Shown here piece by piece: positions 24,965 through 53,921 of a DNA stretch of 64,000 nucleotides (within the stretch, counting starts at the first letter, position 1; every line of letters begins with the position of its first letter). Below the pieces are notes generated by a model that saw only the letters and a program-made list of their open reading frames with translations, ran no database searches and was not told the DNA's origin. The stretch is from Ideonella aquatica (GTDB taxonomy: Bacteria; Pseudomonadota; Gammaproteobacteria; Burkholderiales; Burkholderiaceae_C). The translations under genes were made by a program, and so were the position numbers. The stretch covers positions 1-64,000 of the forward strand of contig NZ_JAGQDE010000014.1 of the NCBI RefSeq assembly GCF_018069755.1, read 5' to 3'.

Positions 24965-26134
24965 CAATGCTGCGAACTTAAGCCCGATCACCCCTTGAAG
25001 GCAAAGCGCGGATGAGTCTTGCGATGGTGCTCGGGACGTGGACAGGATCGCCCCGGGGCGATAGCGCTGGGCGTGCTGCACGAGCATGTTGAAGACGTTG
25101 CCGATGGCGCCGAGCACATCACCGACGGCCAGCAGGATGCGCGGCAATGCACGCTGCAAGAGTTGGGCGGCATAGCGGGCGTTGGCGTGTGGCGCGCAGA
25201 CGCGGTCGTGCGGCAGCGCCGACTCGCTGGCTTTGGTCAGCAATGCGGCGATGTTGTCGGCCAGCACCTTGGAGGCGACGTCGATGAGCAAGGCGTGCTG
25301 GCTCAGGCCGCTGACCGACTCGAGGTGCAGGTTGTGCTTCAGGCGCTTGAACGCTTCCTCGATGCGCCAGCGCTGGTGGTAAAGCGCGCCGAAGTCGCCG
25401 GCCGGGGCCTGCTGGGCATCCAGGTTGGTCGCCAGCACGCGCACGGCGCCATTGGGCGCGACCTGGCGCACCAGACGCACGCGGGGTGCACTGCGCTGGC
25501 AGCCCCAATCGGCAGCGTCCTGTGCCGAAGGCCTGTTGAGGGTGACCGTGGCCTCGGTCTGCCCGCTGCGGATGAACGTGCGCACGGCCGGCCAGCCGCT
25601 GGCCATATCGCAGCGCATGACGAAGCCGATGCCGCGCTCGATCAGCGATTGCACCAGCCAGGCGGCGGGGTAGCCACGGTCGAGCAGCAGCACGTCGTCC
25701 TGGTTCAGGCGATGCAGCGCCTCCATCAGCATGGCCCGCTCGGACTCGGCCGCGCTGTGCACGGCAGCATGCAGCGTGAGGTCCGCGCCGGGCAGGTACA
25801 GGGCAAACAGCCGCTGATCACGCGTGGCCAGACCCACGGTGCGAGGGCAGCGCCGCGTGGCCGGCATCAGCACCGAGGCATCGGCGGCGACCAGGCGACG
25901 GCCGCGCCAGCGCGGAATCAGGCCGAGCCGCTCGGCGTCGACGAGCAGTTGATCGTTGAGGTCCTGCAGGGCCGGCAGGTGCAACCGACCGCGAGCCCGC
26001 GCCAGCGCACGATCGCTGGCCCCTCGGACGAGATCGCCGCTGCCGCCCAAGCAGGTGAAGAAGGTGTCCAGCGAGGTCTGCTGGGAACTGCATCGCTGGC
26101 TCAGCAGGCACGCTACCAGCGTGGGCAGCGGCAA
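24965..26134 (-). CDS. IS4-family transposase (copy A)
   Basis: The protein has the DDE motifs VAADASVLMPATRR (first D), LLLDRGYPAAWLV (second D) and YHQRWRIEEAFKRLKHNLHLE, which fits the Y-(2)-R-(3)-E-(6)-K signature of IS4. The frame is open upstream to about 26250 and encodes a plausible N-terminus (QQILLNLSETITSATFAQRA) without an ATG, so the true start is unresolved; 26134 is a TTG. The frame also runs through the inverted repeat with no stop inside the element. In this copy it ends in flanking DNA at 24905. Confidence 0.85.
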
Positions 26135-26355
26135 CTTGCGGCGTCGGGTGAACGCGTTCGGGTTGCTCGGATGGCGCGCGCGTTGCGCGAAGGTCGCCGA
26201 CGTGATGGTCTCGGACAGGTTCAGCAGAATTTGCTGTACGGAATCACAGTATTGAGGTCGGCATGGGCAGCGACCTTGTCAAGAGAGAAAACATTAATAA
26301 AATCAAGCACTTGCGATTCTGATTCTAGCTCAACTGGGTTAAGTTCGCAGCATTG
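24965..26355 (-). mobile_element. IS4-family element, copy A (left end of the composite transposon)
   Basis: It is bounded by CAATGCTGCGAACTTAA and its complement (17 bases). It is the same length as copy B and seemingly identical over the transposase. One base differs near the inner end: GGGTTAAG here against GGCTTAAG in copy B, which reduces the match of this inner inverted repeat. Confidence 0.88.
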
Positions 26356-26707
26356 GGTTGGCGATGGGGCCACCGGCCTGGGCTTTCAGGTCTGATGCAC
26401 GGCCATCCCAGAACTGGGCCAGGTTCAGGCTGGAATTAAGCACCGTTGGCGCGTTGATCGGGCCCTGTTGCCACTTATCGCCGATGCTGGTCTTGATGTT
26501 GTCGGTACCACCCATGCTGAGGTTGTGGCACGAGTTGCAAGAAATGAATCCCGACTTGGACAGCCGCGGATCGAAATACAGCTTCTTGCCCAATTCCACC
26601 TGGCCCAAATTCACCTGCTGGGGAGGCACGATGGGCTGGATGGGCTCCTGGTTTTGGGCTACCACTGCACCGGCCGTGGCCAGGGCCAATGAAGCCGCAA
26701 GAGCCAT
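26356..26707 (-). pseudogene. N-terminal fragment of a di-haem cytochrome c peroxidase
   Basis: The frame has a signal peptide (MALAASLALATAGAVVAQ) and then ELGKKLYFDPRLSKSG, a CNSCH haem-binding site and NAPTVLNSSLNLAQFWDGRA. All are typical of the CcpA/MauG family, whose periplasmic members reduce peroxide using c-type haems. Only about 115 residues remain before the inner end of IS4 copy A; the second haem domain is lost. It marks where the left IS inserted in the donor. Confidence 0.8.
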
Positions 26708-26785
26708 TGGCAAGAGACGGGAACGTATGAAAACTCCTCAAGCCGTCCCTGCCTGTGCGGGTAAGGGTCGGGATCGGCAAAGCCG

Positions 26786-28225
26786 TCAAGGCGCCTGTCG
26801 GCTTTCCGGGGCCAGCAGGCGGTGGCCGCTGCCACGATTCATGGCATTGAGCAAATCGCCGTTGTCCTGGCTCAACTCCCAGGCGAACACGCCGGCCAGT
26901 CCGACTTCGCGGGCATAGCGTGCCTTTTCGGCCACGGCGCGGGGATCGTCGTACCCGATCCAGCGTTGGTGCGCGGAGTCGTACAGGCTCCACGCCTGTT
27001 GCGCATGACTGAATCGGGTCTCGAACCCACCCCTGCCCCTGCCCTGCCGGTCCAGGTACTGTCGCGCGAGGTCGCGGTAAAAGATGGCGCCGTCCTCGCG
27101 GATCGGAAACACGCCGCTGCGGTCAGCCCCTGGGCGCGGGTCTTTCACGCCTGAGAAGCCGCGGCCGTAAAAGGCCACCCCGGCCACCAGCTTGGACAGC
27201 GGTACGCCATGACGACGCATGTGCGCCACCGACTGCGCCAGGCTGTCGTCGGCACCGGCCCAGCTGCTGAACAGCGGCGCATGGTGGCCCGCCTTCTCGG
27301 TCCATGGGCCATGGTAGTCGTAGGTCATCAGGAAGACCAGATCCAGCGGCGGAGCCGCAAGGCTCCAGTCGATACGGTCCAGCACAGCGGCGGTGGCGTT
27401 GACGGCAACCGTCAACCCGTAGCGTCGACCGGTTTCCCGGCCGAGCGCATCCAGCCCCGCACGCAAGTCCTGCATCAGTAACGCATAGTGGCGCCCATCC
27501 TCGGGATGACCCAGTTGCACGCCATTGGCTGCGCCGTTGCCGCCTGGATGCTCCCAGTCGATGTCGATGCCGTCAAAGCCGGGGTGTTCACGCAAAAAGC
27601 GCTGCATGGCCAGCACCACCGCCTGACGCCCTTCCGCGGTGCTGGCGGCGTGGAACAGCGGGTCAGAACCGCCCCATCCGCCCACCGAAGCCAACACCTG
27701 CACGCGCGGATCGCGGCGCTTCAAGCGCTGGAAGGCCTCGTCGAAGATGCGATGCTGGGGGTGCGGTACTACGTCGAAGGCCGGCCGGCCCTGGCAGGCC
27801 TGCGCATCACGCGCCACCTGACCGGGGCCGCACAGATGCAGAAAGGCGTACAGCACATGGCTGACACTGCCCAGTGGCAGCCGATCGACAGCGCTGGCAG
27901 GCCGCTCGTTGATCACGTAAACGCCGACCACGGCGTCGCCTTGACGTTGCACCGCACGAGCGCCACCGCCAAACCACGGTGCGTCCAGGAGGCTGTCGGA
28001 CTTGGGAGTCGCCGGCTGCAAATCGACCGCAGCGGCGGCTTTTTCACCGTCTTCTTGCCCCATAGCTCGGCTATGGGGCGGCGAATCCGGCAAAAAATCC
28101 GCTCGCTGGGGCCGATTTTCGCTTTGTGTGCCCCGAGTCAGACAGCCTCCTGGTGCGGCACTGGCGGGTCCCGCCACCAGCGCCAGGAACACGACAGGCA
28201 GGACGAGGGCCATGAAGTTGGGCAT
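26786..28225 (-). CDS. secreted GH18 chitinase with an in-frame repeat insertion
   Basis: The 479-residue enzyme has a signal peptide (cleavage near residue 23) and a GH18 barrel with VLASVGGWGGSDPLF near 177 and DGIDIDWE at 218-225, whose last Glu is the catalytic acid. MTYDYHGPW and the late GVFAWELSQDNGDL complete the family motifs, so it should hydrolyse chitin or chito-oligosaccharides. Residues about 26-80 are encoded entirely by copy 1 of the 165-base palindromic element, lying between the signal peptide and the catalytic domain. It is the last gene of the five-gene minus-strand operon starting at 33067, nine bases after the GH16-like gene. Confidence 0.9.
   Translation of the reverse strand: MPNFMALVLPVVFLALVAGPASAAPGGCLTRGTQSENRPQRADFLPDSPPHSRAMGQEDGEKAAAAVDLQPATPKSDSLLDAPWFGGGARAVQRQGDAVVGVYVINERPASAVDRLPLGSVSHVLYAFLHLCGPGQVARDAQACQGRPAFDVVPHPQHRIFDEAFQRLKRRDPRVQVLASVGGWGGSDPLFHAASTAEGRQAVVLAMQRFLREHPGFDGIDIDWEHPGGNGAANGVQLGHPEDGRHYALLMQDLRAGLDALGRETGRRYGLTVAVNATAAVLDRIDWSLAAPPLDLVFLMTYDYHGPWTEKAGHHAPLFSSWAGADDSLAQSVAHMRRHGVPLSKLVAGVAFYGRGFSGVKDPRPGADRSGVFPIREDGAIFYRDLARQYLDRQGRGRGGFETRFSHAQQAWSLYDSAHQRWIGYDDPRAVAEKARYAREVGLAGVFAWELSQDNGDLLNAMNRGSGHRLLAPESRQAP
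27987..28151. repeat. 165-base palindromic element, copy 1 (in frame in the chitinase gene)
   Basis: It is bounded by AGGAGGCTGTCGGACTT and its near complement and has an internal hairpin CCCCATAGC/GCTATGGGG. Its length is exactly 55 codons, with no stop in the chitinase frame. The same element occurs at 32886-33050 and, inverted, at 43638-43802, each 165 bases. Confidence 0.88.
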
Positions 28226-28234
28226 GGGCTGTTC

Positions 28235-29098
28235 TCAAAAATCGCAGCGTGCAGGCTGTTCTGGCGGCGGCAGGTTGTCCTGCTGGGCCACGCCCGCGCG
28301 GCGCAGTGCCTGCACGCGCTGACGCATCGCCTGCGGTGACGCCGATTGATCGGGCAGATGCAGCACCCAGTCGACATCAAAGCTGTAGTGACGCGGGGCA
28401 CCCGCGCTCACGGGCAACAGCCCGCTGGGCGAAAACCAGTGGCTGAAGGCCAGCGACATGGCTTGCCGGGGCACCGTGCGCCCTGCATGCCACGCCACCT
28501 GTCGGCCGTCAACGAACCATCGGCTGCCTTGCGGCGTGCTTTGCACGGTGAGCTGGGTCCAGCGGTCTCCAAAGCTGCGCTTGACTTCCGTGCTGAGGTT
28601 GTGGGCATCCCAGGGCTCCAGGCGCACGGTCTGCCAGGCAATGCCGTACAGCCGAGTTTCGGTTGCGCCCCAACCGCCGTTGGGCAGGTACTCCCAATCC
28701 AGCTCGCTGAACAGCGGGTCATAGTCAAAGCGCAGGGGGCTGACCTGGAAAAAGGCCTGGATCACGGCATCACCGTCGGCGCCCGTGTGCGGTTGGTCGC
28801 TGAAGCGTATGCGCGCGCTGGTGGTCCCCCACAGCGTCTTCGGTGCGCGGCAAAGCTGTGTCTGGTAGCTGCCTTCTGGCGTGCCGTCGGTGGCCGCATG
28901 CAGACGCAACAGGCGGTTGTTCGGCTGCTGAGGGTCGGCAACCAGTTCGATGTGCCCCGCGTCCCAGCGTGCACCGACGATGCCGGGATGACCGATCTTG
29001 TCGCGCAGTGTCCAACCGCTTTGCACCAGTGCCTGCCGGTCGGCTTGGCTGAAGTCGTCGAAGAACAAGGCGCCAGCCAGCGCCAGTGTCGCGATCAT
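28235..29098 (-). CDS. GH16-like secreted glycoside hydrolase
   Basis: The 287-residue protein has a short hydrophobic N-terminus and a concanavalin-like beta-sandwich sequence pattern. The motif SELDWEYLPNGG puts E132, D134 and E136 in the E-x-D-x-E arrangement of GH16 active sites. RFDYDP, RLYGIAWQTVRLEPWD and FVDGRQVAWHAGR fit the same fold. GH16 enzymes cut beta-linked galactans or glucans. In this operon the substrate may be a chitin-associated glycan, but that is inferred. It overlaps the MFS gene by 4 bases. Confidence 0.65.
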   Translation of the reverse strand: MIATLALAGALFFDDFSQADRQALVQSGWTLRDKIGHPGIVGARWDAGHIELVADPQQPNNRLLRLHAATDGTPEGSYQTQLCRAPKTLWGTTSARIRFSDQPHTGADGDAVIQAFFQVSPLRFDYDPLFSELDWEYLPNGGWGATETRLYGIAWQTVRLEPWDAHNLSTEVKRSFGDRWTQLTVQSTPQGSRWFVDGRQVAWHAGRTVPRQAMSLAFSHWFSPSGLLPVSAGAPRHYSFDVDWVLHLPDQSASPQAMRQRVQALRRAGVAQQDNLPPPEQPARCDF

Positions 29099-30357
29099 CC
29101 TGCGGCGGGCTCAGGTGCGGGCGCGCCGATACGCCGCCGTACCCACAGCCACAACAACAGCGCAGGCAGACCTGCCACCATGGTCCAGGCAAAGAAGGTG
29201 TCGTAGCCCAGCGCCTGCTGGACGTCGCCGCTGATGGTCTTGCTGAAAATGAACCCCAGCTGCATGACGCCGCTGCCCAGCGCATAGTGCGCCGTGCTGA
29301 AGCGACCAGGAGCAACCACCTGCATGATGAAAAGAATCATGCCCACAAAGCCAAAGCCGTAGCCTGCCATCTCGATGGCGATGGCTGCAGTGGTGAGCCA
29401 GGCATCCGTGGGCAGCGCATGGGCCAACCACCAGAATGTGGCGTTGGGAATCATCATGGCAAGCAGCAGGACAGGCATCGCGCGGCGCAGACCCAGCGCT
29501 GCGGTGAAGTAGCCGCTCAGGATGGATCCGACCAGAAAGGCCGCCGTACCGGCCGTGCCGTAGATGCCGCCAACCTGTTCGGTGCTGAGCCCGAGGCCGC
29601 CCTGCTCCCGGGGCTCGATCAGGAACAGCGGTCCAATGGTCTGCACCTGACCTTCTGCAAAGCGGAACAGGACGATGAACAGAAAGGCCCAGCCGATGCC
29701 AGGCTTCTTCAGGAAGTCCATCAGCACCTCGGCAAAGTTCGCCCACAGCTGCCCACGTGCTGGCGGACTGCCGATGGCGCTGGGCAGCACACGGGCGTTC
29801 CAGGCTGCCAAGCCAGCCAGCACCAGCGCCAGCAGCAGAAAAATGGCCGACCAGGCGTTGGCCACGCCATGGCGCTTTTCCAGCCAGCCAGCCAGTACGA
29901 GCAGGCCTCCCAGGGTCAGGAACTTGCTGGCATTGAAGAAGGCGCCCTGCCAGCCGGCATAAGCCGCCTGCCGCTTGGCATCCAGCGAGGCCATATACAG
30001 GCCGTCACAGGCAATGTCGTGTGTGGCCGAGGCGAAGGCGAGCACAAAAAACACGGCAATGCACAGGACGAACCAGGCCGGAAGCTGCAAGGCCAACGCC
30101 ACCGCGGCCAGGCCCATGGCGCTGAGAAACTGTGACATCACGACCACGCGCTTCTTGCTGGCCACCAGCTCGATCAGCGGGCTCCACAGCGGCTTGAACG
30201 CCCAGGCCAAGCCCATCAGACCTGTCCAGCGCGCGATGTCGGCATTGCCCACGCCGAGGTTCTTGAACATCAGTCCGGCAATGAGCATGACGACAAAGAA
30301 CTGCAGACCCTGGACGAAGTACAGGCTGGGCACCCAGCGCAGTGCGGACGTGTTCAT
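29095..30357 (-). CDS. MFS transporter, AmpG-like, probable amino-sugar importer
   Basis: The 420-residue inner-membrane protein has about twelve hydrophobic segments and AmpG-type features. These are SLYFVQGLQFFVVMLIAGLMFKNLG at the start, the WAFKPLWSPLIE loop, and ATHDIACDGLYMASLD in the region where AmpG-like carriers have TQDIAxDAY. AmpG relatives import GlcNAc-containing muropeptides. Position between the hexosaminidase and hydrolase genes suggests uptake of GlcNAc or chito-oligosaccharides into the cytoplasm. It overlaps both neighbours by 4 bases. Confidence 0.8.
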   Translation of the reverse strand: MNTSALRWVPSLYFVQGLQFFVVMLIAGLMFKNLGVGNADIARWTGLMGLAWAFKPLWSPLIELVASKKRVVVMSQFLSAMGLAAVALALQLPAWFVLCIAVFFVLAFASATHDIACDGLYMASLDAKRQAAYAGWQGAFFNASKFLTLGGLLVLAGWLEKRHGVANAWSAIFLLLALVLAGLAAWNARVLPSAIGSPPARGQLWANFAEVLMDFLKKPGIGWAFLFIVLFRFAEGQVQTIGPLFLIEPREQGGLGLSTEQVGGIYGTAGTAAFLVGSILSGYFTAALGLRRAMPVLLLAMMIPNATFWWLAHALPTDAWLTTAAIAIEMAGYGFGFVGMILFIMQVVAPGRFSTAHYALGSGVMQLGFIFSKTISGDVQQALGYDTFFAWTMVAGLPALLLWLWVRRRIGAPAPEPAAG

Positions 30358-31862
30358 GACATCTCCAGAGCGCGAATCGGAGGACGGCCGGTGGCGGTCA
30401 GGTGGCCGGCAAGCCAGGCACTCAGCGCGCGCAGCGCTGGCGCGTCGTAGCCCCAGGTCAGCACAGTGGGTGCATTCAGGTCAAGGGCCTGAAACGGGTT
30501 CCAGAGGGCCAGATGCAGATCGATGGGCCAATCACGCGCGGCTGAAGGGTAGCGCTGGCGCGTGTTGGAGGCCAGCACGTTGCAGCGGTGGTCGCGCGGG
30601 ATGTCCTGGCCACGCATCGCCACCAGTCTCGGAACGACCAGCCACTCGATGTCCGTACCACGGGGCCACAACGAGGCCAGCTCCTGCGCAGAAGGACCGG
30701 CTTCGCTGACACCGTCACTGGCCACTTCTGCCTGGGTGATGACGCGCAGCGGACCGCGCGGTGCCTGCGCAGCGCGCAGGGTGGTCAAGGCACGTTCGGC
30801 GGTCAGCTGCATCAGTTGCATGTCGGCGGTCCAGCGCGCGGCATCGACATCGCGCAGCCGTGCCGGAAAGCGCTCGGCCAGGGCATCTATGCGCTGGCTC
30901 GCGCGCTGAAGCTGAGCAGGGTCCAGGCGGCCGTCGACCAGGGCATCAGCCACCGCGTCCACGGTGTCTTCCTGCTCTTGCAGGCTGCCTTGCGCCAGCA
31001 CCATGTCAGCACCCGCTGCCAGTGCGAGCACGGCAGCGCGCGCATGGCCCCAGCGGTCGGCAATGGCGCGCATCATCAAGGCGTCTGTGATGACCACACC
31101 CTGGTAGCCGATGCGGTGCCGCAGAAGTTCGGTCAGGAAAAAGCGCGACAGTGTGGCCGGCCGGTCAGCATCGAGTTGGCGGTACACGATGTGGGCGGTC
31201 ATCAGCGCCGGTGCCTGCTCGTGCAGCGCGTGGAAGGGCCGCAACTCCAGAGCTTCCAGTTCAGCCAGGGTCTTGTCGACCTCTGGCAGCGCATGGTGGG
31301 AGTCTTCGTGAGTGTCGCCATGACCGGGGAAGTGCTTGACGCAGCAGGCGACGCCTTCCAGCAGGCTGCCAGCCATCCAGGCTCCGGCCAGCCGTGAAAC
31401 CTCGTCGGGGTCGTCGGAAAAGCTGCGCTCGCCGATCACCGGATTGGCCGGATTGCTGTTCACGTCCAGCACGGGCGCAAAGTTCCAGTTCACCCCCAAC
31501 CAGGCCATCGAGCGGGCCGTGGCCGCGCCGACCTGGCGCGCGATGTCGGCGTCGCCCACAGCCCCCAGGGCCATGCCGGCCGGCCCCACGGGCACGAACG
31601 TGGCCCGCGAGACGGCGCCTCCTTCCTGGTCCATCGCGACCAGCGCCTTGGTCCCCAGCAGTGCATGCAAGTGCGCCGTCAGCCGCCTTGTACCCGCCAA
31701 GCCGTCGAGATTCTTGCGGAACAGGCACACGGCACGCACCGGGCGACGTCGCAACAGTTCGATCTCGGCGGCGTTCAGGGCCGTGCCCTCGATGTCGATC
31801 ATGACCAGCGATGCCGCCAGTCGCAGTGCATCGCTGCGGTCCATGTGCGCGATAGAGCTCAT
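30354..31862 (-). CDS. nagZ: GH3 beta-N-acetylhexosaminidase, NagZ-like
   Basis: The 502-residue protein carries the NagZ signature KHFPGHGDTHEDSH (176-189), containing the Asp/His general acid-base dyad typical of GH3 hexosaminidases. The nucleophile is Asp260 in VVITDALMM. No signal peptide is present, so it should act in the cytoplasm, splitting chitobiose or GlcNAc-anhydro-sugars to GlcNAc. It is about 150 residues longer than housekeeping NagZ because of a C-terminal domain. Four-base overlaps link it to the deaminase gene upstream and the MFS gene downstream. Confidence 0.87.
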   Translation of the reverse strand: MSSIAHMDRSDALRLAASLVMIDIEGTALNAAEIELLRRRPVRAVCLFRKNLDGLAGTRRLTAHLHALLGTKALVAMDQEGGAVSRATFVPVGPAGMALGAVGDADIARQVGAATARSMAWLGVNWNFAPVLDVNSNPANPVIGERSFSDDPDEVSRLAGAWMAGSLLEGVACCVKHFPGHGDTHEDSHHALPEVDKTLAELEALELRPFHALHEQAPALMTAHIVYRQLDADRPATLSRFFLTELLRHRIGYQGVVITDALMMRAIADRWGHARAAVLALAAGADMVLAQGSLQEQEDTVDAVADALVDGRLDPAQLQRASQRIDALAERFPARLRDVDAARWTADMQLMQLTAERALTTLRAAQAPRGPLRVITQAEVASDGVSEAGPSAQELASLWPRGTDIEWLVVPRLVAMRGQDIPRDHRCNVLASNTRQRYPSAARDWPIDLHLALWNPFQALDLNAPTVLTWGYDAPALRALSAWLAGHLTATGRPPIRALEMS

Positions 31863-33067: not shown

Positions 33068-33215
33068 CGGCGCCTCTTTACTGTCGAAGGCTTGCCGGCA
33101 CGTCTGCCGGATCGCCTTTGGGAGCGGTTGTTTGCGGGCACGGACGCACGGAAGTGCTGGGTCATGGGCCTGATCGCTGTGATGTAAGGGCGTTGGCCAA
33201 GGCCACGCAGCAGAA

Positions 33216-33232
33216 ATACCACTTTAGTACCA
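33216..33232 (-). promoter_or_regulatory. operator-like site A, facing the deaminase operon
   Basis: On the minus strand it reads TGGTACTAAAGTGGTAT. Three similar sites occur: 33341-33357 on the plus strand, 41983-42000 on the minus strand and 42018-42034 on the plus strand. Each points in the direction of the adjacent gene. The local GntR regulator (40306-41046) is the likely binder. Confidence 0.6.
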
Positions 33233-33340
33233 GCAATGAAAGTGGTCAAGCCTCGATCTGACCCGTTCGGGCGATGGCAGCCGATCTGTTCGCAGAACCG
33301 CTGCAAAACCGAGCCTATCCGGGAAAGTACGAAGGGCAAG

Positions 33341-33357
33341 TGGTAGTAAAGTGGATT
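33341..33357 (+). promoter_or_regulatory. operator-like site B, facing the TonB receptor gene
   Basis: TGGTAGTAAAGTGGATT lies just before a -10-like TAGACT (33367-33372), so a bound repressor would cover the -35 region. The rest of the 388-base intergenic stretch (33068-33455) holds no gene. Confidence 0.55.
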
Positions 33358-33455
33358 GCACCTGGCTAGACTGCACCGCAAGCGTGCCCCATGCAGGTCT
33401 GGCATGCGTGATCGAGCCGCACCCTCTTTGCACCCTTTACACCCAGGAGAGCTCC

Positions 33456-36392: not shown

Positions 36393-36407
36393 CATCCTCA
36401 AGACATC

Positions 36408-43576: not shown

Positions 43577-43637
43577 GACCGACCCGTTCTGATCGGGCGC
43601 CGCGCGGGTGGGCTCAAGCCTGCCATCCTGTCGATCT

Positions 43638-43802
43638 AGGAGGCTGTCGGACTTGGGGCGCCGAGAGCGAGAATCGGCCCCAGCGAGGACAGTTTTTGCC
43701 GGATTTGCAGCCCCATAGCCCAGCTATGGGGCAAAAAGCCGGTGAAAAAGCCGCCGCTGCGGCCGATTTGCAGCCGGCGACACCCAAGTCCGACAGCCTC
43801 CT
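43638..43802. repeat. 165-base palindromic element, copy 3 (intergenic, inverted)
   Basis: The same 165-base element as in the chitinase and deaminase genes, in the opposite orientation, with the end sequence AGGAGGCTGTCGGACTTGGG and its complement. It is flanked by CT and AG as in copy 2. It lies between IS debris and the YecA-like gene. Confidence 0.88.
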
Positions 43803-43867
43803 AGAGGCATCGCCGGACATACGCCCCAGGAACGCGCATCGACGAGATCAACCAGGACCGTGAATTG

Positions 43868-44596: not shown

Positions 44597-44651
44597 GTTT
44601 GAAGATGGCACAGCAGGTTTCGGATAGATAGCACAGTGAATGTTGCTTGTC

Positions 44652-47243
44652 TCATGCGGTTTTGTAGTGCTCAGAATACGCTTGGCGAAGTTGCATCTTC
44701 ACGACTTTTCCCGTCGCACCCACTGGCAGCTGCGCAGACATCACGACGTCCGGGACCTGCCAGGAGGGCAGCTTCTCTTCAAACAGCCGCCGGATTTCCG
44801 CCGTGGTGATGGCACCACTGCCGGAAGAGACACAAACAACCAGCGGGCGCTCTCCCCACCGCGGGTGCGGGACGGCAATTGCAGCCGCCTCCACCACACC
44901 AGGGTGCTGCAGAGCAATCGCTTCGAGCTGGATAGAACTGATCCACTCTCCACCGGACTTGATCAAGTCCTTGTCCCGGTCCGTGATGACCATCACGGCG
45001 TCCGAGCCAAGGGTGGCAATGTCCCCCGTGTCGAACCAACCGTCGGTCGTCGTGATCTTGTCGCCGCGAAAGTAGCTGTCGACCACCCAATGACCAGAAA
45101 TCATCAGATGGCCTGCAGACTTGCCATCATGAGGAAGAACATGTCCCTCCGGATTGACCAGCTTCAGTCGTACCCCGAACGGCGCGCGCCCCTGGCACCT
45201 CAGGCGGGCAGCGGCCTCTTCCGGCGACAACGTGGCAGCCTCTGCCGCCGTCAGTGAACTGATGGTGCCCAGAGGAGAAGTCTCGGTCATGCCCCAGCCA
45301 TGAATGACCTCTACGCGATGCCGTTCCCGAAAAGCTCTCACCATGGGTTGTGTCACCGCAGAACCACCGATGATGGTCCGCCGCATGGTGGAGAACGTGC
45401 CGTCCGTACCGTCCAAATACGCGAGCAGCGATTGCCAGATGGTGGGCACGCCTGCGGACAGGGTTGTCCCGGTTTTCTCGAACAGGTCGTGCAACGCCTC
45501 TCCTCCCAGATTGGATCCGGGTAATGCCAGTGAGGCACCGGCAATGGCAGCGGCAAAGGGTATCGACCAGGCGTTGACATGGAACATGGGCACCACAGGT
45601 GCGACCGTATCGGACCGAGTCAATCCGAGAGCGTCCGGGCCGATGGCCGTCATCGACTCGAGCACCAGTGCGCGGTGAGAGTAGAGAACACCTTTCGGAT
45701 ATCCGGTGGTACCGGAGGTGTAGCACAGAGCAGCCGCAGAGTTTTCGTCAAGTTGGGGCCAGCTTGACAGTGGCGCAGCGCCCGAAATGAGTTCGTCATA
45801 GGCCTGATCTCGCCATTCAAGACCGACGGGCGCGCGGGACAACTGAATCCAGTGCCGAACCTTCGGGCACAGCGGCCTCAAGGTGTCAACGAGTCCAGCG
45901 AACGTACCGTCATAGAAAAGTACTTCGTCTTCGGCCTGGTGGATCATGAAGCGCAGGTGATCCAGGGACAGACGCGGGTTGATGGTGTGCAGAACAGCCC
46001 CGATTCCCGTGACGCCATAGTAGAGCTCCAGATGGCGGTGCGTGTTCCACGCAATCGATCCAATCCGGTCGCCTTCATCAACGCCAAAGGCTTTCAGCAC
46101 TGACGCAATGCACCTGGCGCGCCTGGCCGTATCTCCCCAGGCTTGCCGCACGATCACGCCAAGTTCAGCCACGCGCGCTGGCGCCTCTCGCGACCAAATG
46201 GGCGTGTGATGGTGGCCCTCTTCCGCATGAGTCAACAGTGACGACAAAATCAGAGGGTGGTGCTGCATGCCGCCGATCATCTTGGCCTTTCGAGGTGGGT
46301 CCACCGCTTCGTCTGCGGTCGGTAGCGTCAGGGAGTTGATGTGATCAGCGCCCGCAGACTGGACGTCTGGCGCTGAAGGCGTCGCGGGTACAGGCAGCTT
46401 GGCGCCCTCGTTGAGAACCTGAACCGAGAGCCAGTGCTCGATCAGTGTGGCTGCATCCGACCACCGATCGTCCACCATGAACATGTGCGAGGCCAATGGC
46501 AGCACACGTGACTCGACGCCATAGAAGCTGGCCGTTTCCTCGTTGTTTGCGATGCTGATCAATTGGTCAAACTCGGCGCCCAATACGGCGACGGGGACCA
46601 AGTTCGGGGACCGCTTTCCTCGCATCGGCAAAAGAAGCATGTCCAGAAAGGCACGAAAGCTCTCCGACTTCAGGCGCTGCAGAAGATGATCTTTGTCAGT
46701 GCGGCTTTCATCCCGGGAAAACAACAGGCCCCGGGCTGTTGCGTGATCGGCTACGGCACCGTACAGGTCCAGCGTTGCAACCGTACGCAAAAATGCCAAG
46801 GGACGTTCAGCAATGACTCGCCGCAATGCATGCCACGCCCCGGAAGGCGGAACCGAGGCCAGGAGCGCCAGCGCCCGAGCGCCATGACGCGCTGCGTATT
46901 TCTGCGCCACAAAGCCACCCATCGAGTGCCCGATGATGACCGGGCGGGTCAGACCCTGCGCTGCGACCGAGACGTCATCCACGTAGTCCTGAATAGATGA
47001 CCAGCGTATCCGTCCCTTTGACTCGCCGTGCCCGCGTAGGGATACTGCCCTGGCCCTGAAGCCGCGCTCTGCAAACCAGGGCAGAAAGAAGGACTCCCAA
47101 TACCAACTCGAAGACCAGGCCCCATGGACAAAAAGAAGATCCGCACGCTGGATCGCGTTGCTGCACTCATACGTGGACACGTGCAGCGCGCCAGCCGCCC
47201 CACTGCGGAATTCTTCAGTCCGCATGATCGAGACTGCTGACAT
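44652..47243 (-). CDS. fusion of an alpha/beta-hydrolase and an acyl-CoA/AMP-dependent ligase
   Basis: The 863-residue protein joins two enzymes. Residues 1-275 form an alpha/beta-hydrolase with nucleophile elbow GHSMGG (Ser107), oxyanion-region HGAW (40-43) and the probable catalytic His253 in ASHMFMVDD. After a Pro/Ala/Ser-rich linker (275-320), residues 322-863 form a complete medium/long-chain acyl-CoA synthetase, with the P-loop YTSGTTGYPKG (508-518), HGWGMTETSPLG, DTGDIA and the C-terminal GKVVKMQLR lysine. One chain could hydrolyse an ester or thioester and activate the released acid to a CoA thioester. It follows the monooxygenase gene by five bases, suggesting a Baeyer-Villiger-type degradation operon. 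Confidence 0.85.
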   Translation of the reverse strand: MSAVSIMRTEEFRSGAAGALHVSTYECSNAIQRADLLFVHGAWSSSWYWESFFLPWFAERGFRARAVSLRGHGESKGRIRWSSIQDYVDDVSVAAQGLTRPVIIGHSMGGFVAQKYAARHGARALALLASVPPSGAWHALRRVIAERPLAFLRTVATLDLYGAVADHATARGLLFSRDESRTDKDHLLQRLKSESFRAFLDMLLLPMRGKRSPNLVPVAVLGAEFDQLISIANNEETASFYGVESRVLPLASHMFMVDDRWSDAATLIEHWLSVQVLNEGAKLPVPATPSAPDVQSAGADHINSLTLPTADEAVDPPRKAKMIGGMQHHPLILSSLLTHAEEGHHHTPIWSREAPARVAELGVIVRQAWGDTARRARCIASVLKAFGVDEGDRIGSIAWNTHRHLELYYGVTGIGAVLHTINPRLSLDHLRFMIHQAEDEVLFYDGTFAGLVDTLRPLCPKVRHWIQLSRAPVGLEWRDQAYDELISGAAPLSSWPQLDENSAAALCYTSGTTGYPKGVLYSHRALVLESMTAIGPDALGLTRSDTVAPVVPMFHVNAWSIPFAAAIAGASLALPGSNLGGEALHDLFEKTGTTLSAGVPTIWQSLLAYLDGTDGTFSTMRRTIIGGSAVTQPMVRAFRERHRVEVIHGWGMTETSPLGTISSLTAAEAATLSPEEAAARLRCQGRAPFGVRLKLVNPEGHVLPHDGKSAGHLMISGHWVVDSYFRGDKITTTDGWFDTGDIATLGSDAVMVITDRDKDLIKSGGEWISSIQLEAIALQHPGVVEAAAIAVPHPRWGERPLVVCVSSGSGAITTAEIRRLFEEKLPSWQVPDVVMSAQLPVGATGKVVKMQLRQAYSEHYKTA

Positions 47244-47248
47244 CGCCG

Positions 47249-48589
47249 CTACTCGGTCGCGAAGCTGGGCAGACCCGAAGAGGCCCGCTCCTTCCTTCCT
47301 GGCAGGGACCGGGCGAGGTCCGCCCTCAAGCGATGGCGGAAGGCAAAGTCGTTCACCGTAATGGTGTGCCGATGTGAATTGACCTGGCGAACATCTGGAT
47401 TTGCAAGTTCGTGATCGATGAGTTCGTCAAGGTCTTTTGCGGGTTCCCACAGGCCCGCAAGATGCCGAGCTGCAAGCTTCGCCTGCAACTCCGCCCCGGG
47501 CCAGATGCAACCCAGTGGCTGAAAAAGTCCGATGAAATAGAGGTTCTTCAAGTGAGAGGGCAACATGCGCTGATACAGACGCACCGACGTCTGAGACAGA
47601 TCGATGAGTGACCGATCGAGAAAAGGATGGGTGATGTGGAATCCGGTGCAGGCCACCACACAGTCGAATTCCTGCGCGGTACCGTCGGCAAAATGAACCG
47701 TTCGCCCATCGAAGCGCGCAACATCGCCCTTGGGCAGCACCTTCCCGTGCCGGATCGCGAGGTACAGATCTGAATTCAGCGTCGGATGCGTCGCCAGAAT
47801 TTCATGATCCGGCTCCGGAAGACCGATGTCCCGATTCCGTCCCTGCAACAGGTTGATGGTCAGCTTCATGCCGCGAATCTGCGCCCACTTGGGCAGATGT
47901 CGGAAGCGATAGAAGAATTTGTCCACGGGCATTCCGAAGACAAACTTTGGAATGAGGTAGTAGCCCCTTCGCCAGCTGATCACCGTCTTGCTTGAGACAC
48001 GCGCAGTCTCGACCGCCACGTCGCATGCGGAGTTTCCACCTCCGATCACCAGAACGCGCTTGCCAGCAAAGCCGGCCGCCCGCTTGTAGTCGTGGGAGTG
48101 GATGTACTCCCCCGAGAACTCGCCTGGATACTCGGGCCATCGAGGTGTGTGGTGGTGACCGCTGGCCACGCACAGGGCGTCGAACACCTTGCTCTCGGTT
48201 GAGCCTTCATCCGTCTGCCACGTCAGTCGCCAGCGATGCCCTTCAACCGGTTCCGCCCGGCTCACGGTGGTCCGAAACCGGATGTGCGGGCGAAGCCCGA
48301 ACTCGGTGGCATAAGCCCGGAAATATCGCAGCAGCTGAACGTGCGATGGGTAGTCGGGTGAGTCCTTGGGAAGCGGAAAGTCCTCGTACTCGGATGTGTA
48401 CTTGGAACTGATGATGTGCGTTGTCTCGAAAACGCTGGAGTGGCCTGTACTGTCGTTGAACTGCCAGTTTCCGCCCACGTCCTCGCACCGGTCAAAGCCG
48501 GTGACGTCAAAGCCCTGATCCATCAGGTTCTTGATGGTGGGCAGACCGGCCGGCCCCGCACCAATCACAGCGACAGTCTTATTCCGCAA
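47249..48589 (-). CDS. FMO-type flavin monooxygenase
   Basis: The 446-residue protein has an N-terminal FAD site GAGPAG (10-15), the FMO fingerprint FSGEYIHSHDYK (158-169) and an NADPH site GGGNSACD (183-190). It would hydroxylate or insert oxygen into a small organic substrate. Five bases downstream is the hydrolase-ligase fusion, which could process the resulting ester. The pair is inferred to be a catabolic route for a ketone-like compound; the substrate cannot be read from the sequence. Confidence 0.85.
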   Translation of the reverse strand: MRNKTVAVIGAGPAGLPTIKNLMDQGFDVTGFDRCEDVGGNWQFNDSTGHSSVFETTHIISSKYTSEYEDFPLPKDSPDYPSHVQLLRYFRAYATEFGLRPHIRFRTTVSRAEPVEGHRWRLTWQTDEGSTESKVFDALCVASGHHHTPRWPEYPGEFSGEYIHSHDYKRAAGFAGKRVLVIGGGNSACDVAVETARVSSKTVISWRRGYYLIPKFVFGMPVDKFFYRFRHLPKWAQIRGMKLTINLLQGRNRDIGLPEPDHEILATHPTLNSDLYLAIRHGKVLPKGDVARFDGRTVHFADGTAQEFDCVVACTGFHITHPFLDRSLIDLSQTSVRLYQRMLPSHLKNLYFIGLFQPLGCIWPGAELQAKLAARHLAGLWEPAKDLDELIDHELANPDVRQVNSHRHTITVNDFAFRHRLRADLARSLPGRKERASSGLPSFATE

Positions 48590-48704
48590 TTCAGTCTCCT
48601 CACGAGAGCCAGGACGTGTTCAGATCGAGAAGTAACCGGAGCGAGACGGTTGAATCTGGCGCGCTGCATTGCAGGCATCGGACTCAACCCCCGCTGGCGG
48701 CGGG

Positions 48705-49322
48705 CTACTCACGACGCGGCTTGAAAAACTCGACGATCCGCTGCGTCGCCTTGAACGCCGTGAATTCGCGGACCTTGAAGACGCCGTCCAGCGGCGTGTC
48801 GAACAGATGGTTGGTGTAGTTCGAGAGCGTCTTGATGCCGATGGCCAGCACGATGCCCAGCAGGTGCTTCTCCTCATAGCCGGCGTTGAGCAGCTTCTGC
48901 ACCGTGGCCGGGTCGGGCCGCCCGCGCGACAAGAGCACCTGGCGTGTGACGTCGACCAGCACGCGCAGCTTGGCATCCGGGATGTCCTCTCCATTCCGAA
49001 TCGCATCGGTCACTGCGCGCGGCACGCGGGACAGGGTATCGGCCACCAGGCTGTGAGCAGCCACGCAGTAGTCACAGGCGTTTTCGTAGCTGATGACGAG
49101 GAAGATGACTTCGAGTTCAGCGGGGGTGAACCCCGCCTCCTTGCGCAGGGCCTCGTAGCCGTACAGGTACGTATCGAGCAGCGCGGGGCTGTGTGCCATT
49201 GCTCGATACATGTTGGGCAGCATGCCTTGCGTGGCCTTTCGGCCGCGGGCGAGAAGCTCGGCCTGGCGTGGCGACTGATCAGCGGTCTCGAGCAGTGGAA
49301 GGGTGACGAGTGGTGTGTTCAT
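48705..49322 (-). CDS. carboxymuconolactone decarboxylase/AhpD-family protein
   Basis: The 205-residue all-helical protein has the redox motif CDYCVAAH (C83, C86, H90) typical of AhpD-like alkylhydroperoxidases of the CMD family. It could protect against peroxides or act as a thiol reductase. It is divergent from the AraC/GlxA-type regulator gene, 73 bases away, and is probably its target. The stretch between it and the monooxygenase gene (48590-48704) has no gene. Confidence 0.85.
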   Translation of the reverse strand: MNTPLVTLPLLETADQSPRQAELLARGRKATQGMLPNMYRAMAHSPALLDTYLYGYEALRKEAGFTPAELEVIFLVISYENACDYCVAAHSLVADTLSRVPRAVTDAIRNGEDIPDAKLRVLVDVTRQVLLSRGRPDPATVQKLLNAGYEEKHLLGIVLAIGIKTLSNYTNHLFDTPLDGVFKVREFTAFKATQRIVEFFKPRRE

Positions 49323-49395
49323 GAGCGAATCCTAGACCTCGGTACGTGGCTGCAACAGTGGCGGTTTGGACACTTTTTTTGTATATTTCGCCATC

Positions 49396-50340
49396 ATGCT
49401 CTCGATCGCCATCATCGATCTCGAAGGCCAGTTCAACGCCCCGGTCGCCGTGACGCTGGACGCCTTGCAGATCGTGGCGTCCCTGGCCGGCCGCCCCATG
49501 GCCGACGTGGCCTACATCGGCGGCCAACGCGGCTTTGCCAAGGCCACGCGCATGCCATGGTCGGCCTTGGTCGAACCTTGGGATGTGGTCATCGTTCCCG
49601 GCCTCGGCCTGTCCCATGCGTTGGACCCCGTCACAGCCTTGTCCACGACGAAGGGCCAAACTCTCGTCCATGCCTTGCAGGCGCAGCATGACAGCGGTGC
49701 GTTGCTGGCAACGTCCTGCACGGCGAGCTTTGCCCTGGCTGAAGCCGGTGTGCTGGACGGGCGCCTGGCCACCACCAGCTGGTGGCTGGCCGCGGAATTC
49801 CGCCACCGTTACCCGCGGGTCCAGCTGCGTGAAGGTGCGCTGACGACCGAGGACGGGAAGGTGCTGTGCGCCGGGGGCACGCTGGCGCATGTGGACCTGA
49901 TGCTGGTTCTGATCGCCAAGCAGTTCGGTGCAGAGCTCGCCACTCAAGTGGCCCGGTATCTGGTGAGCCCCTGGAGGGCGCCGCAATCAGCGGTTGCCGA
50001 AATCGGCCAGACCCGCGTGACGGACCCATTGGTGGCGCGGGCGATAACACACATCAAGGCAAATCTTGATCGCGCCGTTTCGGTCGAAGAGCTCGCGGAC
50101 ACCCTGGCGACGAGCCCGCGCACGCTTCATCGCCATGCGCAGGCCAGCCTGGGCTTGTCGGTGGTCGGGCTGATGCGCCGCGTGCGCGGAGAAGAAGCCA
50201 TGCGCATGCTTCGCGAAACCGACCTGCCCTTGTCACGCATTGCCGAGCAGGTGGGCTACACCGACACATCCACGCTGCGAACACTCGTGCTCAAGCTCAG
50301 CGGTCAGACTCCCGCCGCACTGCGACGAAGGGGGAAGTGA
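49396..50340 (+). CDS. GlxA-type AraC-family transcriptional regulator
   Basis: The 314-residue protein combines an N-terminal DJ-1/PfpI-like domain (about 1-170, with VIVPGLGL and ATSCTASFALAEAGVLDG, where Cys lies at the usual elbow) and a C-terminal AraC helix-turn-helix pair (SVEELADTLATSPRTLHRH and LPLSRIAEQVGYTDTSTLRTL). It likely regulates the divergent AhpD-like gene and the downstream hydrolase. The start at 49396 was preferred to an upstream ATG at 49366 because homologous domains begin with the first beta-strand. Confidence 0.85.
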   Translation: MLSIAIIDLEGQFNAPVAVTLDALQIVASLAGRPMADVAYIGGQRGFAKATRMPWSALVEPWDVVIVPGLGLSHALDPVTALSTTKGQTLVHALQAQHDSGALLATSCTASFALAEAGVLDGRLATTSWWLAAEFRHRYPRVQLREGALTTEDGKVLCAGGTLAHVDLMLVLIAKQFGAELATQVARYLVSPWRAPQSAVAEIGQTRVTDPLVARAITHIKANLDRAVSVEELADTLATSPRTLHRHAQASLGLSVVGLMRRVRGEEAMRMLRETDLPLSRIAEQVGYTDTSTLRTLVLKLSGQTPAALRRRGK

Positions 50341-51359
50341 AATGCAGCCCACCGCAGCACCAACACACCGGCATGAGCTCCGCGGGGATACTTGAGCGGC
50401 CCAGTCGACCCGCAAGCCCCTTGGAAACCTACGCTGACTCGCCCTCGTGGCACCGCTACCGGCAACTGCTGCTCGATGCCTTCGGCATCTCCATCCGGCG
50501 CACTCCTGTCGAGCGATGGAGGACCGTCCGTGGACATCAATTGCATCTCGACGAATGGAGCCCGGAGGGTCGAGCGACGGGTACGCTGATCCTCGTCCAC
50601 GGCGGTGGCGGCAACGGGCGCATCCTCGCTCCCCTGGCAGATTTCGCAGCCGGCATTGGCTGGCGCGCGGTCGCCCCAGACCTGCCCGGCTATGGGCTCA
50701 CCCGCCCGGGTGCAGACTTCCACTGGGACTACGGTGAGTGGCCTGCGGTCGTCGCCGCCTTGGCAGACGATGTCCAGGGCTCCGTCGTCCTGATGGGACT
50801 GTCCGTCGGCGGGATGACCGCGGCACTCGCAGCCCAGGCAGCCAGAGGGGTACAGGGCGTCATCGCCACCACCTTGCTCGACATGAGCGATCCAGCCACC
50901 TTCGTGCGGGCTGCGAAGTGGCCTTGGCTGGGCAAGGCGTCTTTGCTGGGTTTTCGATGGATGCCTTCGACCATTGACCGGCTGCGGCTTCCGCTGCGCC
51001 TGCTGGCGCCCCTGGACCGGATGTCCGGCCATCCGGCGATGACCGAGTACTTCGAGAATGACCCGCTCATCGGCCGCCTGCGGGTCCCGAGCCGCTTCTT
51101 CCGAACGATGCACACCCTGCAGATGCCGCACCTGGAGCCTCGATGCCCCTTGCTGCTGGTGCATCCCGGTGCCGACAACTGGACGCCGACGACGATGAGT
51201 CGGCCTGCGTTCGATCGTGTTCTGGGAGACAAGCGTCTGCGAGAACTGTCGAACGGTTCGCACCTGCCCGCTGAACTGCCGGCGCGCCTCGAACTTGAGC
51301 AGGAGGTGACGAAATTCCTGCGAGCGGTGGAGCTCAAAGACGCCGCTGGAGCGCGGTAG
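50337..51359 (+). CDS. alpha/beta-hydrolase
   Basis: The 340-residue protein has the oxyanion-hole HGGGGNG, nucleophile elbow GLSVGG and a late GSHLPAELP with the likely catalytic His. It could cleave an ester or related bond. The GTG start at 50337 overlaps the regulator stop by 4 bases; an ATG at 50373 is an alternative that removes 12 non-conserved residues. The coupling suggests co-expression with the regulator. Confidence 0.8.
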   Translation: MKCSPPQHQHTGMSSAGILERPSRPASPLETYADSPSWHRYRQLLLDAFGISIRRTPVERWRTVRGHQLHLDEWSPEGRATGTLILVHGGGGNGRILAPLADFAAGIGWRAVAPDLPGYGLTRPGADFHWDYGEWPAVVAALADDVQGSVVLMGLSVGGMTAALAAQAARGVQGVIATTLLDMSDPATFVRAAKWPWLGKASLLGFRWMPSTIDRLRLPLRLLAPLDRMSGHPAMTEYFENDPLIGRLRVPSRFFRTMHTLQMPHLEPRCPLLLVHPGADNWTPTTMSRPAFDRVLGDKRLRELSNGSHLPAELPARLELEQEVTKFLRAVELKDAAGAR

Positions 51360-51786
51360 TACTCAAACGCCCGGCCGCACTCAAACGCCCACAGTGCCGG
51401 CAATCCCGCGGAGACGCTGGGCTTGGCCGCGCAAAGGCCGACGTGTACGCTGGCTCATGGGATGTTGCCGGCCGTGCAAAGCCCGTCGACCTGCGCACCG
51501 CCCTGCGGTGCATCCCTTGAGCCCAGGGCATGGGCTCGAACCGACGAACCGACTTGCCGCAGCAAGCGCCGTCGGGGCCAACGCCGCGCGTCGCGGCGGC
51601 CAGCAGCAAGACCTCGGCACAAGACGGCAGTGGTGTCCCGTGTCCCTCGTGGTTCCCGTTGCGCTCAGTCGCTCGGGACGGACAGAAACACTTACCAGAC
51701 CGACTTCACACCAGCGACAACGAACCCGACCGCCCCCCCAGGGGCAACCGACCGACCTGACAACGGAGAACGCCAGCAGCAACCGG
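51360..51786. other. 427-base stretch without a gene, upstream of the truncated integrase
   Basis: The frames through this stretch are low-complexity, GC-rich read-through of the integrase frame and look non-coding. It contains small palindromes such as CGCCGCGCGTCGCGGCG near 51583 but no recognised promoter or RNA. Confidence 0.5.
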
Positions 51787-52530
51787 ATGCGCGACCTGAA
51801 CTACCAGCTCAAGCAGCTCTGCCATCGCAACCGCGACGGCAGCTTCGCCACCCAGCGCGACCGCGAACGTGTGCTCGACCTCGTGGCCAACCAGCTCCAA
51901 GAGGCGGGCTTTCGGCATCTGGGCGCCACCAGCCTGAAGCCCGAGCACGTGGACGGCCTGGTGGCGCGCTGGCAGGCCGAGGGTCTGGCCATCGGCACCA
52001 TCAAGAACCGCAGGGCCGAACTGCGCTGGTGGGCCGAGAAAATCGGCAAGAGCAACGTCATCGCCCGCGACAACCACCACTACGGCATCGGCAACCGGCA
52101 GCACGTCACCAACGTCAGCAAGGCACGGGAACTCCAGTTCAGCGAGCTCTCACGGATGAACGACCAGTATTCGGCCATGTCGATGCGGCTGCAGGCCGCC
52201 TTCGGACTGCGGCGCGAGGAATCCATCAAGATCCGGCCGGAATGGGCCGAGCGGGGCAACATCCTCGCTCTGAAGGACACCTGGACCAAGGGCGGCCGAA
52301 CGCGCGAGGTGCCCGTCTGCAATGCGGAGCAGCGGCAGCTGCTCGACGAGGCGAAGGCTCTGGCCGGCAGGGGCAGCCTCATCCCGGCGGACAAGACCTA
52401 CGCCGAGCAGCTGCGCCGCTTCGAGCACCAGTGTGCTTCGGCCGGTATCCACCGGGTGCACGGCTTCCGGCATCAGTATGCTCAGGTGCGGTATCGGGAG
52501 TTGACGGGCTGGGCAGCGCCGGCAGCCGGC
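51787..52530 (+). pseudogene. integrase-type tyrosine recombinase truncated by IS4 copy B
   Basis: About 248 residues remain: an N-terminal core-binding region (DLNYQLKQLCHRNRDGSFAT, TIKNRRAELRWWAEKIGK), the catalytic-domain start with Arg in AFGLRREESIKIRPEW, TKGGRTREVPV and HGFRHQYAQVRY. The frame then runs into the inner end of IS4 copy B, so the final His and the nucleophilic Tyr are lost. It marks the right-hand donor junction of the composite transposon. Confidence 0.82.
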
Positions 52531-53700
52531 CAATGCTGCGAACTTAAGCCCGATCACCCCTTGAAGGCAAAGCGCGGATGAGTCTTGCGATGGTGCTCGG
52601 GACGTGGACAGGATCGCCCCGGGGCGATAGCGCTGGGCGTGCTGCACGAGCATGTTGAAGACGTTGCCGATGGCGCCGAGCACATCACCGACGGCCAGCA
52701 GGATGCGCGGCAATGCACGCTGCAAGAGTTGGGCGGCATAGCGGGCGTTGGCGTGTGGCGCGCAGACGCGGTCGTGCGGCAGCGCCGACTCGCTGGCTTT
52801 GGTCAGCAATGCGGCGATGTTGTCGGCCAGCACCTTGGAGGCGACGTCGATGAGCAAGGCGTGCTGGCTCAGGCCGCTGACCGACTCGAGGTGCAGGTTG
52901 TGCTTCAGGCGCTTGAACGCTTCCTCGATGCGCCAGCGCTGGTGGTAAAGCGCGCCGAAGTCGCCGGCCGGGGCCTGCTGGGCATCCAGGTTGGTCGCCA
53001 GCACGCGCACGGCGCCATTGGGCGCGACCTGGCGCACCAGACGCACGCGGGGTGCACTGCGCTGGCAGCCCCAATCGGCAGCGTCCTGTGCCGAAGGCCT
53101 GTTGAGGGTGACCGTGGCCTCGGTCTGCCCGCTGCGGATGAACGTGCGCACGGCCGGCCAGCCGCTGGCCATATCGCAGCGCATGACGAAGCCGATGCCG
53201 CGCTCGATCAGCGATTGCACCAGCCAGGCGGCGGGGTAGCCACGGTCGAGCAGCAGCACGTCGTCCTGGTTCAGGCGATGCAGCGCCTCCATCAGCATGG
53301 CCCGCTCGGACTCGGCCGCGCTGTGCACGGCAGCATGCAGCGTGAGGTCCGCGCCGGGCAGGTACAGGGCAAACAGCCGCTGATCACGCGTGGCCAGACC
53401 CACGGTGCGAGGGCAGCGCCGCGTGGCCGGCATCAGCACCGAGGCATCGGCGGCGACCAGGCGACGGCCGCGCCAGCGCGGAATCAGGCCGAGCCGCTCG
53501 GCGTCGACGAGCAGTTGATCGTTGAGGTCCTGCAGGGCCGGCAGGTGCAACCGACCGCGAGCCCGCGCCAGCGCACGATCGCTGGCCCCTCGGACGAGAT
53601 CGCCGCTGCCGCCCAAGCAGGTGAAGAAGGTGTCCAGCGAGGTCTGCTGGGAACTGCATCGCTGGCTCAGCAGGCACGCTACCAGCGTGGGCAGCGGCAA
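52531..53700 (-). CDS. IS4-family transposase (copy B)
   Basis: The 390 residues encoded within the element are the same as in copy A (DDE motifs and YHQRWRIEEAFKRLKHNLHLE). The frame again has no stop inside the IS. In this copy it continues through antisense of the integrase fragment to 52150, adding about 127 unrelated residues. The product would therefore carry a different tail from copy A, which may affect activity. Confidence 0.85.
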
Positions 53701-53921
53701 CTTGCGGCGTCGGGTGAACGCGTTCGGGTTGCTCGGATGGCGCGCGCGTTGCGCGAAGGTCGCCGACGTGATGGTCTCGGACAGGTTCAGCAGAATTTGC
53801 TGTACGGAATCACAGTATTGAGGTCGGCATGGGCAGCGACCTTGTCAAGAGAGAAAACATTAATAAAATCAAGCACTTGCGATTCTGATTCTAGCTCAAC
53901 TGGCTTAAGTTCGCAGCATTG
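52531..53921 (-). mobile_element. IS4-family element, copy B (right end of the composite transposon)
   Basis: It has the same 1,391-base length as copy A, with CAATGCTGCGAACTTAAGCC at one end and the exact complement at the other (20 bases). The outer flank is the target duplication ATCTGGGAGA at 53922-53931; the inner flank is the interrupted integrase gene. Confidence 0.9.

Follow-up and report, generated by a model that had tools for sequence, protein, structure and literature searches.

The 64,000-nucleotide window analysed here (positions 1 to 64,000 of contig NZ_JAGQDE010000014.1 of Ideonella aquatica, genome G000) contains, at 24965-53921, a 28,957-bp unit that, taken as a whole, is quite probably a composite transposon with IS4-type ends. 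Two copies of one insertion sequence (IS) enclose an 11-gene cluster with a GntR/UTRA regulator, predicted to take chitin to fructose-6-phosphate, together with further cargo. The mechanism is classical; a polysaccharide cargo with its own regulator is unusual. From the anatomy described below we infer the transposition of the whole unit. The borders and their flanks are as follows.

24955-24964, plus strand: left target-site repeat, ATCTGGGAGA (flank comparison).
24965-26355, minus strand: left IS copy, IS4 type (self-comparison, transposase profile match, alignment with the relative in genome G008).
26356-26713, minus strand: MauG-like cytochrome-c-peroxidase gene, truncated by the IS to a 5' fragment (profile match, genus comparison).
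51394-52530, plus strand: phage-type integrase gene, truncated by the IS (profile match, plasmid relatives).
52531-53921, minus strand: right IS copy, IS4 type (self-comparison with the left copy).
53922-53931, plus strand: right target-site repeat, ATCTGGGAGA (flank comparison).

The first-pass annotation had described two 1,391-base IS4-family copies in the same orientation, with identical 10-base outer flanks, different inner flanks and cut genes at both inner edges, and each of these points was confirmed. The copies, both 1,391 bp long and direct, differ by a single mismatch in pairwise comparison, at IS position 1374, which in the left copy lies close to the inner end. The window contains the outer repeat ATCTGGGAGA at 24955 and 53922 and nowhere else, the other strand included; the chance that two random 10-mers of the window are identical is 4.4e-6. 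Over 10 bp, the outer flanks match each other at 10/10 positions, the inner flanks at 5/10, and the two flanks of each individual copy at 3/10 (left IS) and 3/10 (right IS). Independent insertion of each IS is ruled out by these last two values. Five related elements (four of nine plasmid records with IS relatives, and the one in G008) were checked for repeats, and exact 10-bp repeats were found at three of them: in Cupriavidus pinatubonensis, in C. necator and at a shortened copy in Polaromonas. A 10-bp repeat is therefore something that such a transposase can leave, and a single target-site duplication is the best reading of the outer repeat.

At the left inner edge, the cytochrome-peroxidase-like gene is truncated after about 119 codons. 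Its open frame has 352-375 codons in the four genus members examined (G006, G007, G012 and G014), to which the fragment shows 77-85% DNA identity; no chitinase of this kind was found in the 12-16 kb around the gene in these four genomes. At the right inner edge, the integrase lacks about 40 C-terminal codons compared with the ends of two plasmid relatives. As homology is seen only from about residue 132 onwards, the start as called lies too far upstream.

The reverse-strand transposase frame matches the NCBIfam IS4 family transposase model NF033592 above its cut-off, with the catalytic part in one open reading frame (ORF). According to passages of the 2008 review of the IS4 family (PMC2266710), its members carry a YREK motif and a D(60-110)D(100-150)E spacing, and their transposase is normally a single ORF without frameshifting; for the IS4 subgroup, the same passages give direct repeats of 10-13 bp, a typical size of 1400-1650 bp and ends of the pattern -AATR--------WTW. 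In the unit, the motif YHQRWRIEEAFKRLK fits YREK, the spacing D-66-D-106-E falls within the family range and the ends CAATGCTGCGAACTTAAG fit the subgroup pattern, while the length of 1,391 bp is slightly below the subgroup range. The composite-transposon anatomy proposed earlier is thus supported by the outer 10-bp repeat, the lack of repeats at either single IS, the cut inner genes, the IS4-type sequence and motifs, and the repeats at three of five relatives: two copies of one IS surround non-IS cargo, with one outer target duplication and none per single IS.

In its own genome the IS is present as two full copies, both at the unit, together with two fragments that are each some 80 bases long and 73-75% identical (best 40 of 314 candidates). 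Across 399 genomes of the order, own genome included, a match at E <= 1e-40 was found only in the own genome. Among 99 other relatives, with three candidates scored per genome, G008 has one full-length relative (67% identical), and the remaining matches listed, besides those in G008 and in G011, another species of the genus, are pieces of at most 150 bases. No relative of the transposase was found in viral contigs. At the transposase start (26230-26275 and 53796-53841), a short ATG frame ends in TCAATACTGTGA and the transposase frame continues one base on, an arrangement common to the window IS and the G008 relative. No in-frame ATG was seen, and the transposase possibly starts by a +1 frameshift or from a non-ATG codon.

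Whether the unit can still jump by itself is a separate matter. It may have formed as a composite transposon and now be a relic carried along by a larger element, a serious possibility that we rate just short of probable; it concerns present activity and is compatible with the composite-transposon reading. In alignment with the G008 relative, the transposase of both window copies is out of frame for roughly its last 21 residues, and no stop codon ends the frame inside the IS; the two copies are identical in this. The only two full IS copies of the genome are those of the unit, and the unit occupies the same site in G011. The frameshift is, however, confined to the last ~21 residues, behind the catalytic motifs, and as it is common to both copies, it may already have been there when the IS was copied.

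A history of capture by recombination appears unlikely. Here a single IS would have jumped in and made the 10-bp repeat, and a circle of the cargo plus one IS would later have recombined with it by homology. Such a course would likewise lead to these outer repeats and to IS copies that are almost identical, and the altered transposase makes host recombination attractive. However, if the circle had arisen around one simple IS insertion, the inner flanks should match each other, which the 5/10 match rules out; the cargo would have needed IS flanks beforehand, and no single-IS version of the site was seen in the 399 genomes of the order or in 16 genomes of the genus. That two real IS insertions were wrongly joined around a foreign segment is highly improbable, for although the assembly is made of short contigs (58 in 5.17 Mb) and repeats of IS length often break assemblies, the assembly of G011 has the same structure to the base.

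G011 carries both IS copies at the same site, with the same spacing of 27,566, the same one-base difference and the same four flanks. The cargo at this site without the IS copies, named in the first-pass annotation as counter-evidence, was not what this genome presented. Over 18638-64000, the two genomes differ by two mismatches, one of them within the unit; over 18638-90507 of the contig, 71,870 bp including both IS copies align at 99.97% with 23 mismatches, and over 92677-143051, 50,393 bp align at 99.06%. Backbone samples of the same two genomes are 92, 92 and 86% identical, and further ones 92.6 and 93.2%. The near-identity of the block against a divergent backbone shows that a larger accessory element moved recently between at least two species, and this larger element is likely the vehicle of the spread between G000 and G011. 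Spread by single transposition events, as suggested earlier, finds no support here: in the one spread seen, the unit keeps its site and is embedded in a shared block of far greater length. A cargo native to the genus at this site is ruled out, as besides the own genome only G011 of the 16 genus genomes matched the first 18.3 kb (26356-44650 was searched) near-identically, with both IS copies. The identity with G011 begins at 18638-18670, at a palindrome-like sequence GCTACAGAT...ATCTGTAGC beside a DUF3701 tyrosine-integrase gene (16720-18612), and this palindrome is possibly the crossover site of that integrase.

In the order of events that the anatomy suggests, a donor, which probably belonged to the same bacterial family, would have acquired two IS copies on either side of the chitin-use cluster and an adjoining oxidation/CoA-ligase module. 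The transposase would then have linked the outermost end of each IS to a single target, producing the 10-bp duplication. The product now lies within the larger accessory element that recently passed between at least two species.

The chitin part of the cargo comprises the following genes.

26786-28225, minus strand: GH18 chitinase (profile match).
28235-29098, minus strand: 287-aa protein, conserved in related nag operons (homologue comparison).
29095-30357, minus strand: MFS transporter, AmpG-like (profile match, below the AmpG model cut-off).
30354-31862, minus strand: GH3 beta-N-acetylhexosaminidase (profile match, NF003740 above cut-off).
31859-33067, minus strand: SIS-type glucosamine-6-phosphate deaminase, NagB-II-like (profile match, below model cut-off).
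33351-36281, plus strand: TonB-dependent receptor (profile match).
36363-38048, plus strand: tryptophan-halogenase-like flavoprotein (profile match).
38110-39129, minus strand: cupin-8 protein (profile match).
39172-40284, minus strand: NagA, N-acetylglucosamine-6-phosphate deacetylase (TIGR00221 above cut-off).
40306-41046, minus strand: GntR/UTRA regulator, NagQ-like by context (GntR and UTRA domain matches).
41043-41978, minus strand: BadF/BcrA-type kinase, predicted N-acetylglucosamine (GlcNAc) kinase (profile match, substrate inferred).

The cargo named in the first-pass annotation was recovered in this list; new relative to that annotation are the halogenase and cupin genes, the second metabolic module, the 165-bp repeat in three copies and the C-terminal frameshift of both transposase copies. 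On the minus strand the kinase, GntR/UTRA regulator, NagA and cupin genes follow one another; the TonB receptor and halogenase genes stand in the opposite sense, and the deaminase, GH3, AmpG-like, 287-aa and GH18 genes come next. From these families and their order, a secreted GH18 enzyme would cut chitin, the TonB receptor and the AmpG-like carrier would import the oligosaccharides, and the GH3 enzyme would free GlcNAc. The kinase, NagA and the NagB-II-like deaminase would then yield fructose-6-phosphate, with a NagQ-type regulator acting at three predicted operator sites. The chitin-to-fructose-6-phosphate pathway proposed earlier stands in so far as its genes are complete by annotation; its working is a prediction from the same annotation.

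Relatives have a comparable arrangement. The order kinase-GntR-NagA-deaminase-GH3-AmpG-like-287-aa is unbroken in genome G015, and G005 and G013 have the order kinase-NagA-deaminase-GH3-AmpG-like-287-aa with the regulator absent from that place. The regulator adjoins the kinase in G015 (66% identity); the stretches that matched in G005 and G013 do not have it there, and G013 has a GntR gene (48%) beside a receptor gene. The 287-aa protein had no Pfam match itself and none in a search of the PDB, but two of three homologues scanned match GH16 weakly, just below the cut-off, and its ELDWE sequence resembles the GH16 motif. Homology of the deaminase begins near residue 65, and the true start of the TonB receptor probably lies downstream of the called GTG. 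By eye, the start of the chitinase resembles a signal peptide. The halogenase-like and cupin-8 genes (36363-39129) are embedded in the chitin cluster, with NagA on one side and the deaminase on the other; on host contig C22, two further halogenase-like matches and one cupin-like match stand beside receptor-like matches.

A motif scan predicted three operators, which fall in two intergenic regions.

33217-33232, plus strand: predicted NagQ-type operator, TACCACTTTAGTACCA.
33341-33356, minus strand: second predicted operator, with three mismatches.
41984-41999, plus strand: predicted operator, TACCACTTTAATACCA, a short distance upstream of the kinase-regulator-NagA-cupin unit.

The 16-bp motif, TACCA-N6-TACCA, is thus found in one copy ahead of the kinase and in two copies ahead of the TonB receptor. 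In relatives it precedes the kinase in G015, G005 and G013 and a receptor gene in G015 and G013. At up to three mismatches it was found at 10 places in 211,490 bases, compared with one in total for 12 shuffled patterns, and seven of the 10 lie in the relatives' loci, independent of how the motif was found. At the same threshold, none was found in the host's own nag region or in the other sampled host region. Three guessed 12-mer palindromes, tried as GntR operators, gave no match. Passages on NagQ (PMC5343134) describe a GntR-family regulator of GlcNAc genes with a tandem-repeat motif. The regulator of the unit adjoins nag genes and is in this respect NagQ-like by context, and the predicted operator, as a putative NagQ-type site, fits the tandem-repeat description given in these passages.

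The host background bears on what the unit could add. Two chitin-active families, GH18 and GH19, were searched. The cargo chitinase is the sole GH18 match in G000 and likewise in G011, and five of the 16 genus genomes have any, though six of 14 control genomes also gave a match. GH19 matched in six of the 16, in neither G000 nor G011, and in none of the 14 controls. Homologues of the deaminase, NagA and the kinase are present elsewhere in the own genome, on contig C14 (58, 62 and 42% identical, respectively), in a nag stretch that is 93% identical to G011. The unit, if active, would therefore add the polymer-cutting step, and growth on chitin is predicted to depend on it.

Several observations weigh against this picture. 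Exact 10-bp repeats are lacking at two of the five related elements (C. taiwanensis and G008), and the shared C-terminal frameshift, with no stop inside the IS, makes present mobility uncertain. The function of the cluster is assigned by annotation only, with the deaminase and the AmpG-like carrier scoring below the NCBIfam cut-offs, and of the two receptor genes on the G015 contig, one lacks a preceding operator match. A second genomic site of the unit was not seen among the 99 other relatives, with three candidates scored per genome. The uninterrupted site, the search for which had been proposed in the first-pass annotation, was not found in the 399 genomes of the order, the 16 of the genus or the plasmid collection; beyond G000 and G011 the flanks matched only as short pieces, and the joined flanks had no match in the plasmid collection. 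Apart from these points, the right outer flank matched in 208 of 299 family genomes, and among the matches listed all but the window's own stretch lie in a chemotaxis-receptor gene. The far end of the left outer flank (24465-24591) has copies at 94-96% elsewhere in the own genome (contigs C9, C11 and C37) and probably belongs to another repeated element.

The remainder of the cargo contains the following.

42069-43172, plus strand: TPR protein (profile match).
43865-44596, plus strand: YecA/UPF0149 protein with SEC-C motif (profile match).
44652-51359, unstranded: second metabolic module, oxidation/CoA-ligase (profile matches).

The last of these holds a hydrolase-CoA-ligase fusion, a flavin monooxygenase, a weakly CMD-like protein (below cut-off), an AraC-type regulator and an alpha/beta hydrolase, and is unrelated to the chitin part. 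In addition, a MITE-like 165-bp repeat with inverted ends AGGAGGCTGTCGGACTTGG is present in three cargo copies, at 27977-28160, 32884-33052 and 43629-43812. One copy lies in frame within the chitinase ORF, just behind the signal-peptide-like start, and one about 20 bases ahead of the likely deaminase gene start. All matches listed in the own genome lie in the cargo (best 5 of 44 candidates), and similar repeats occur in nine of 149 other family genomes and, in a separate search, many times in G004. This distribution points to a donor of the same family and to no particular species. Among the matches listed, the 14 nearest named relatives of the chitinase, at 50-57% identity, are assigned for example to Mitsuaria, Roseateles, Pelomonas, Rubrivivax, Aquabacterium and Rhizobacter, and one is a metagenome-assembled genome labelled Vitreoscilla. 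Judged by the cargo and other accessory genes, the order would be Burkholderiales.

Outside the unit, heavy-metal efflux genes (RND, P-type ATPase) lie at 839-12132, to the left of the shared block, in a region that shares 84% identity with plasmids of Acidovorax carolinensis across 53% of an 18.6-kb query. ParA/ParB-like genes of the contig show sub-cut-off similarity to integrative-element families, and no record of the plasmid collection covered 80% of the query when contig segments were searched. Just outside the unit, 55619-60571 encodes a 1,650-aa NACHT-domain protein that is perhaps a defence protein, and the contig also carries a defence-like DUF1156/PLD-helicase system.

The ability to use a major natural polymer is, in most discussions, either tied to a lineage or placed on large conjugative elements. 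In this unit, a predicted complete pathway and its own switch are packaged between two copies of one IS, in genomes without another GH18 match or any GH19 match. Tentatively, and as a possibility we hold to be less likely than the relic described above, the unit could be a portable chitin regulon, in which transporters, enzymes, regulator and operators jump as one, turn a bacterium that uses only GlcNAc into a chitin user, and afterwards spread from species to species within a larger mobile element. If it works, it would be a clean natural experiment on whether a new carbon source can be gained in a single transfer event, since the entire trait would disappear with one deletion. Titles and abstract openings of the papers listed for composite transposons with a chitinase or polysaccharide utilization contained no such unit, which is not to claim its absence from print.

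Among known systems, Tn10 and Tn5 have inverted IS copies and drug-resistance cargo. Like the unit, these IS10 and IS50 composites, named in passages of PMC2266710, have IS4-family DDE ends at both borders around their cargo, whereas the unit has direct copies, ends of the IS4 subgroup and not of the IS10 or IS50 subgroup, a length of about 29 kb and a sugar-polymer catabolic cargo. For xenobiotic catabolic composite transposons, papers such as PMC3281130 and PMC9676059 bring the terms composite transposon and catabolic transposon together in environmental Proteobacteria; the unit differs in that its pathway is for a natural polysaccharide and comes with a regulator of its own and predicted operators. 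Polysaccharide use on mobile DNA is also found in the gut, where passages of PMC6907783 report 47 SusC/SusD loci on mobile elements, and composite transposons as well; those loci are of the SusC/SusD type and from Bacteroidetes, and the passages neither place them on composite transposons nor describe a chitin locus. Closest in regulation are the NagQ regulons, for which the passages of PMC5343134 describe a GntR regulator, a tandem-repeat motif and, in the Reinekea example, nagKAB and chitin genes in one regulon. Those are genome regulons, whereas the predicted regulon described here lies between two IS copies.

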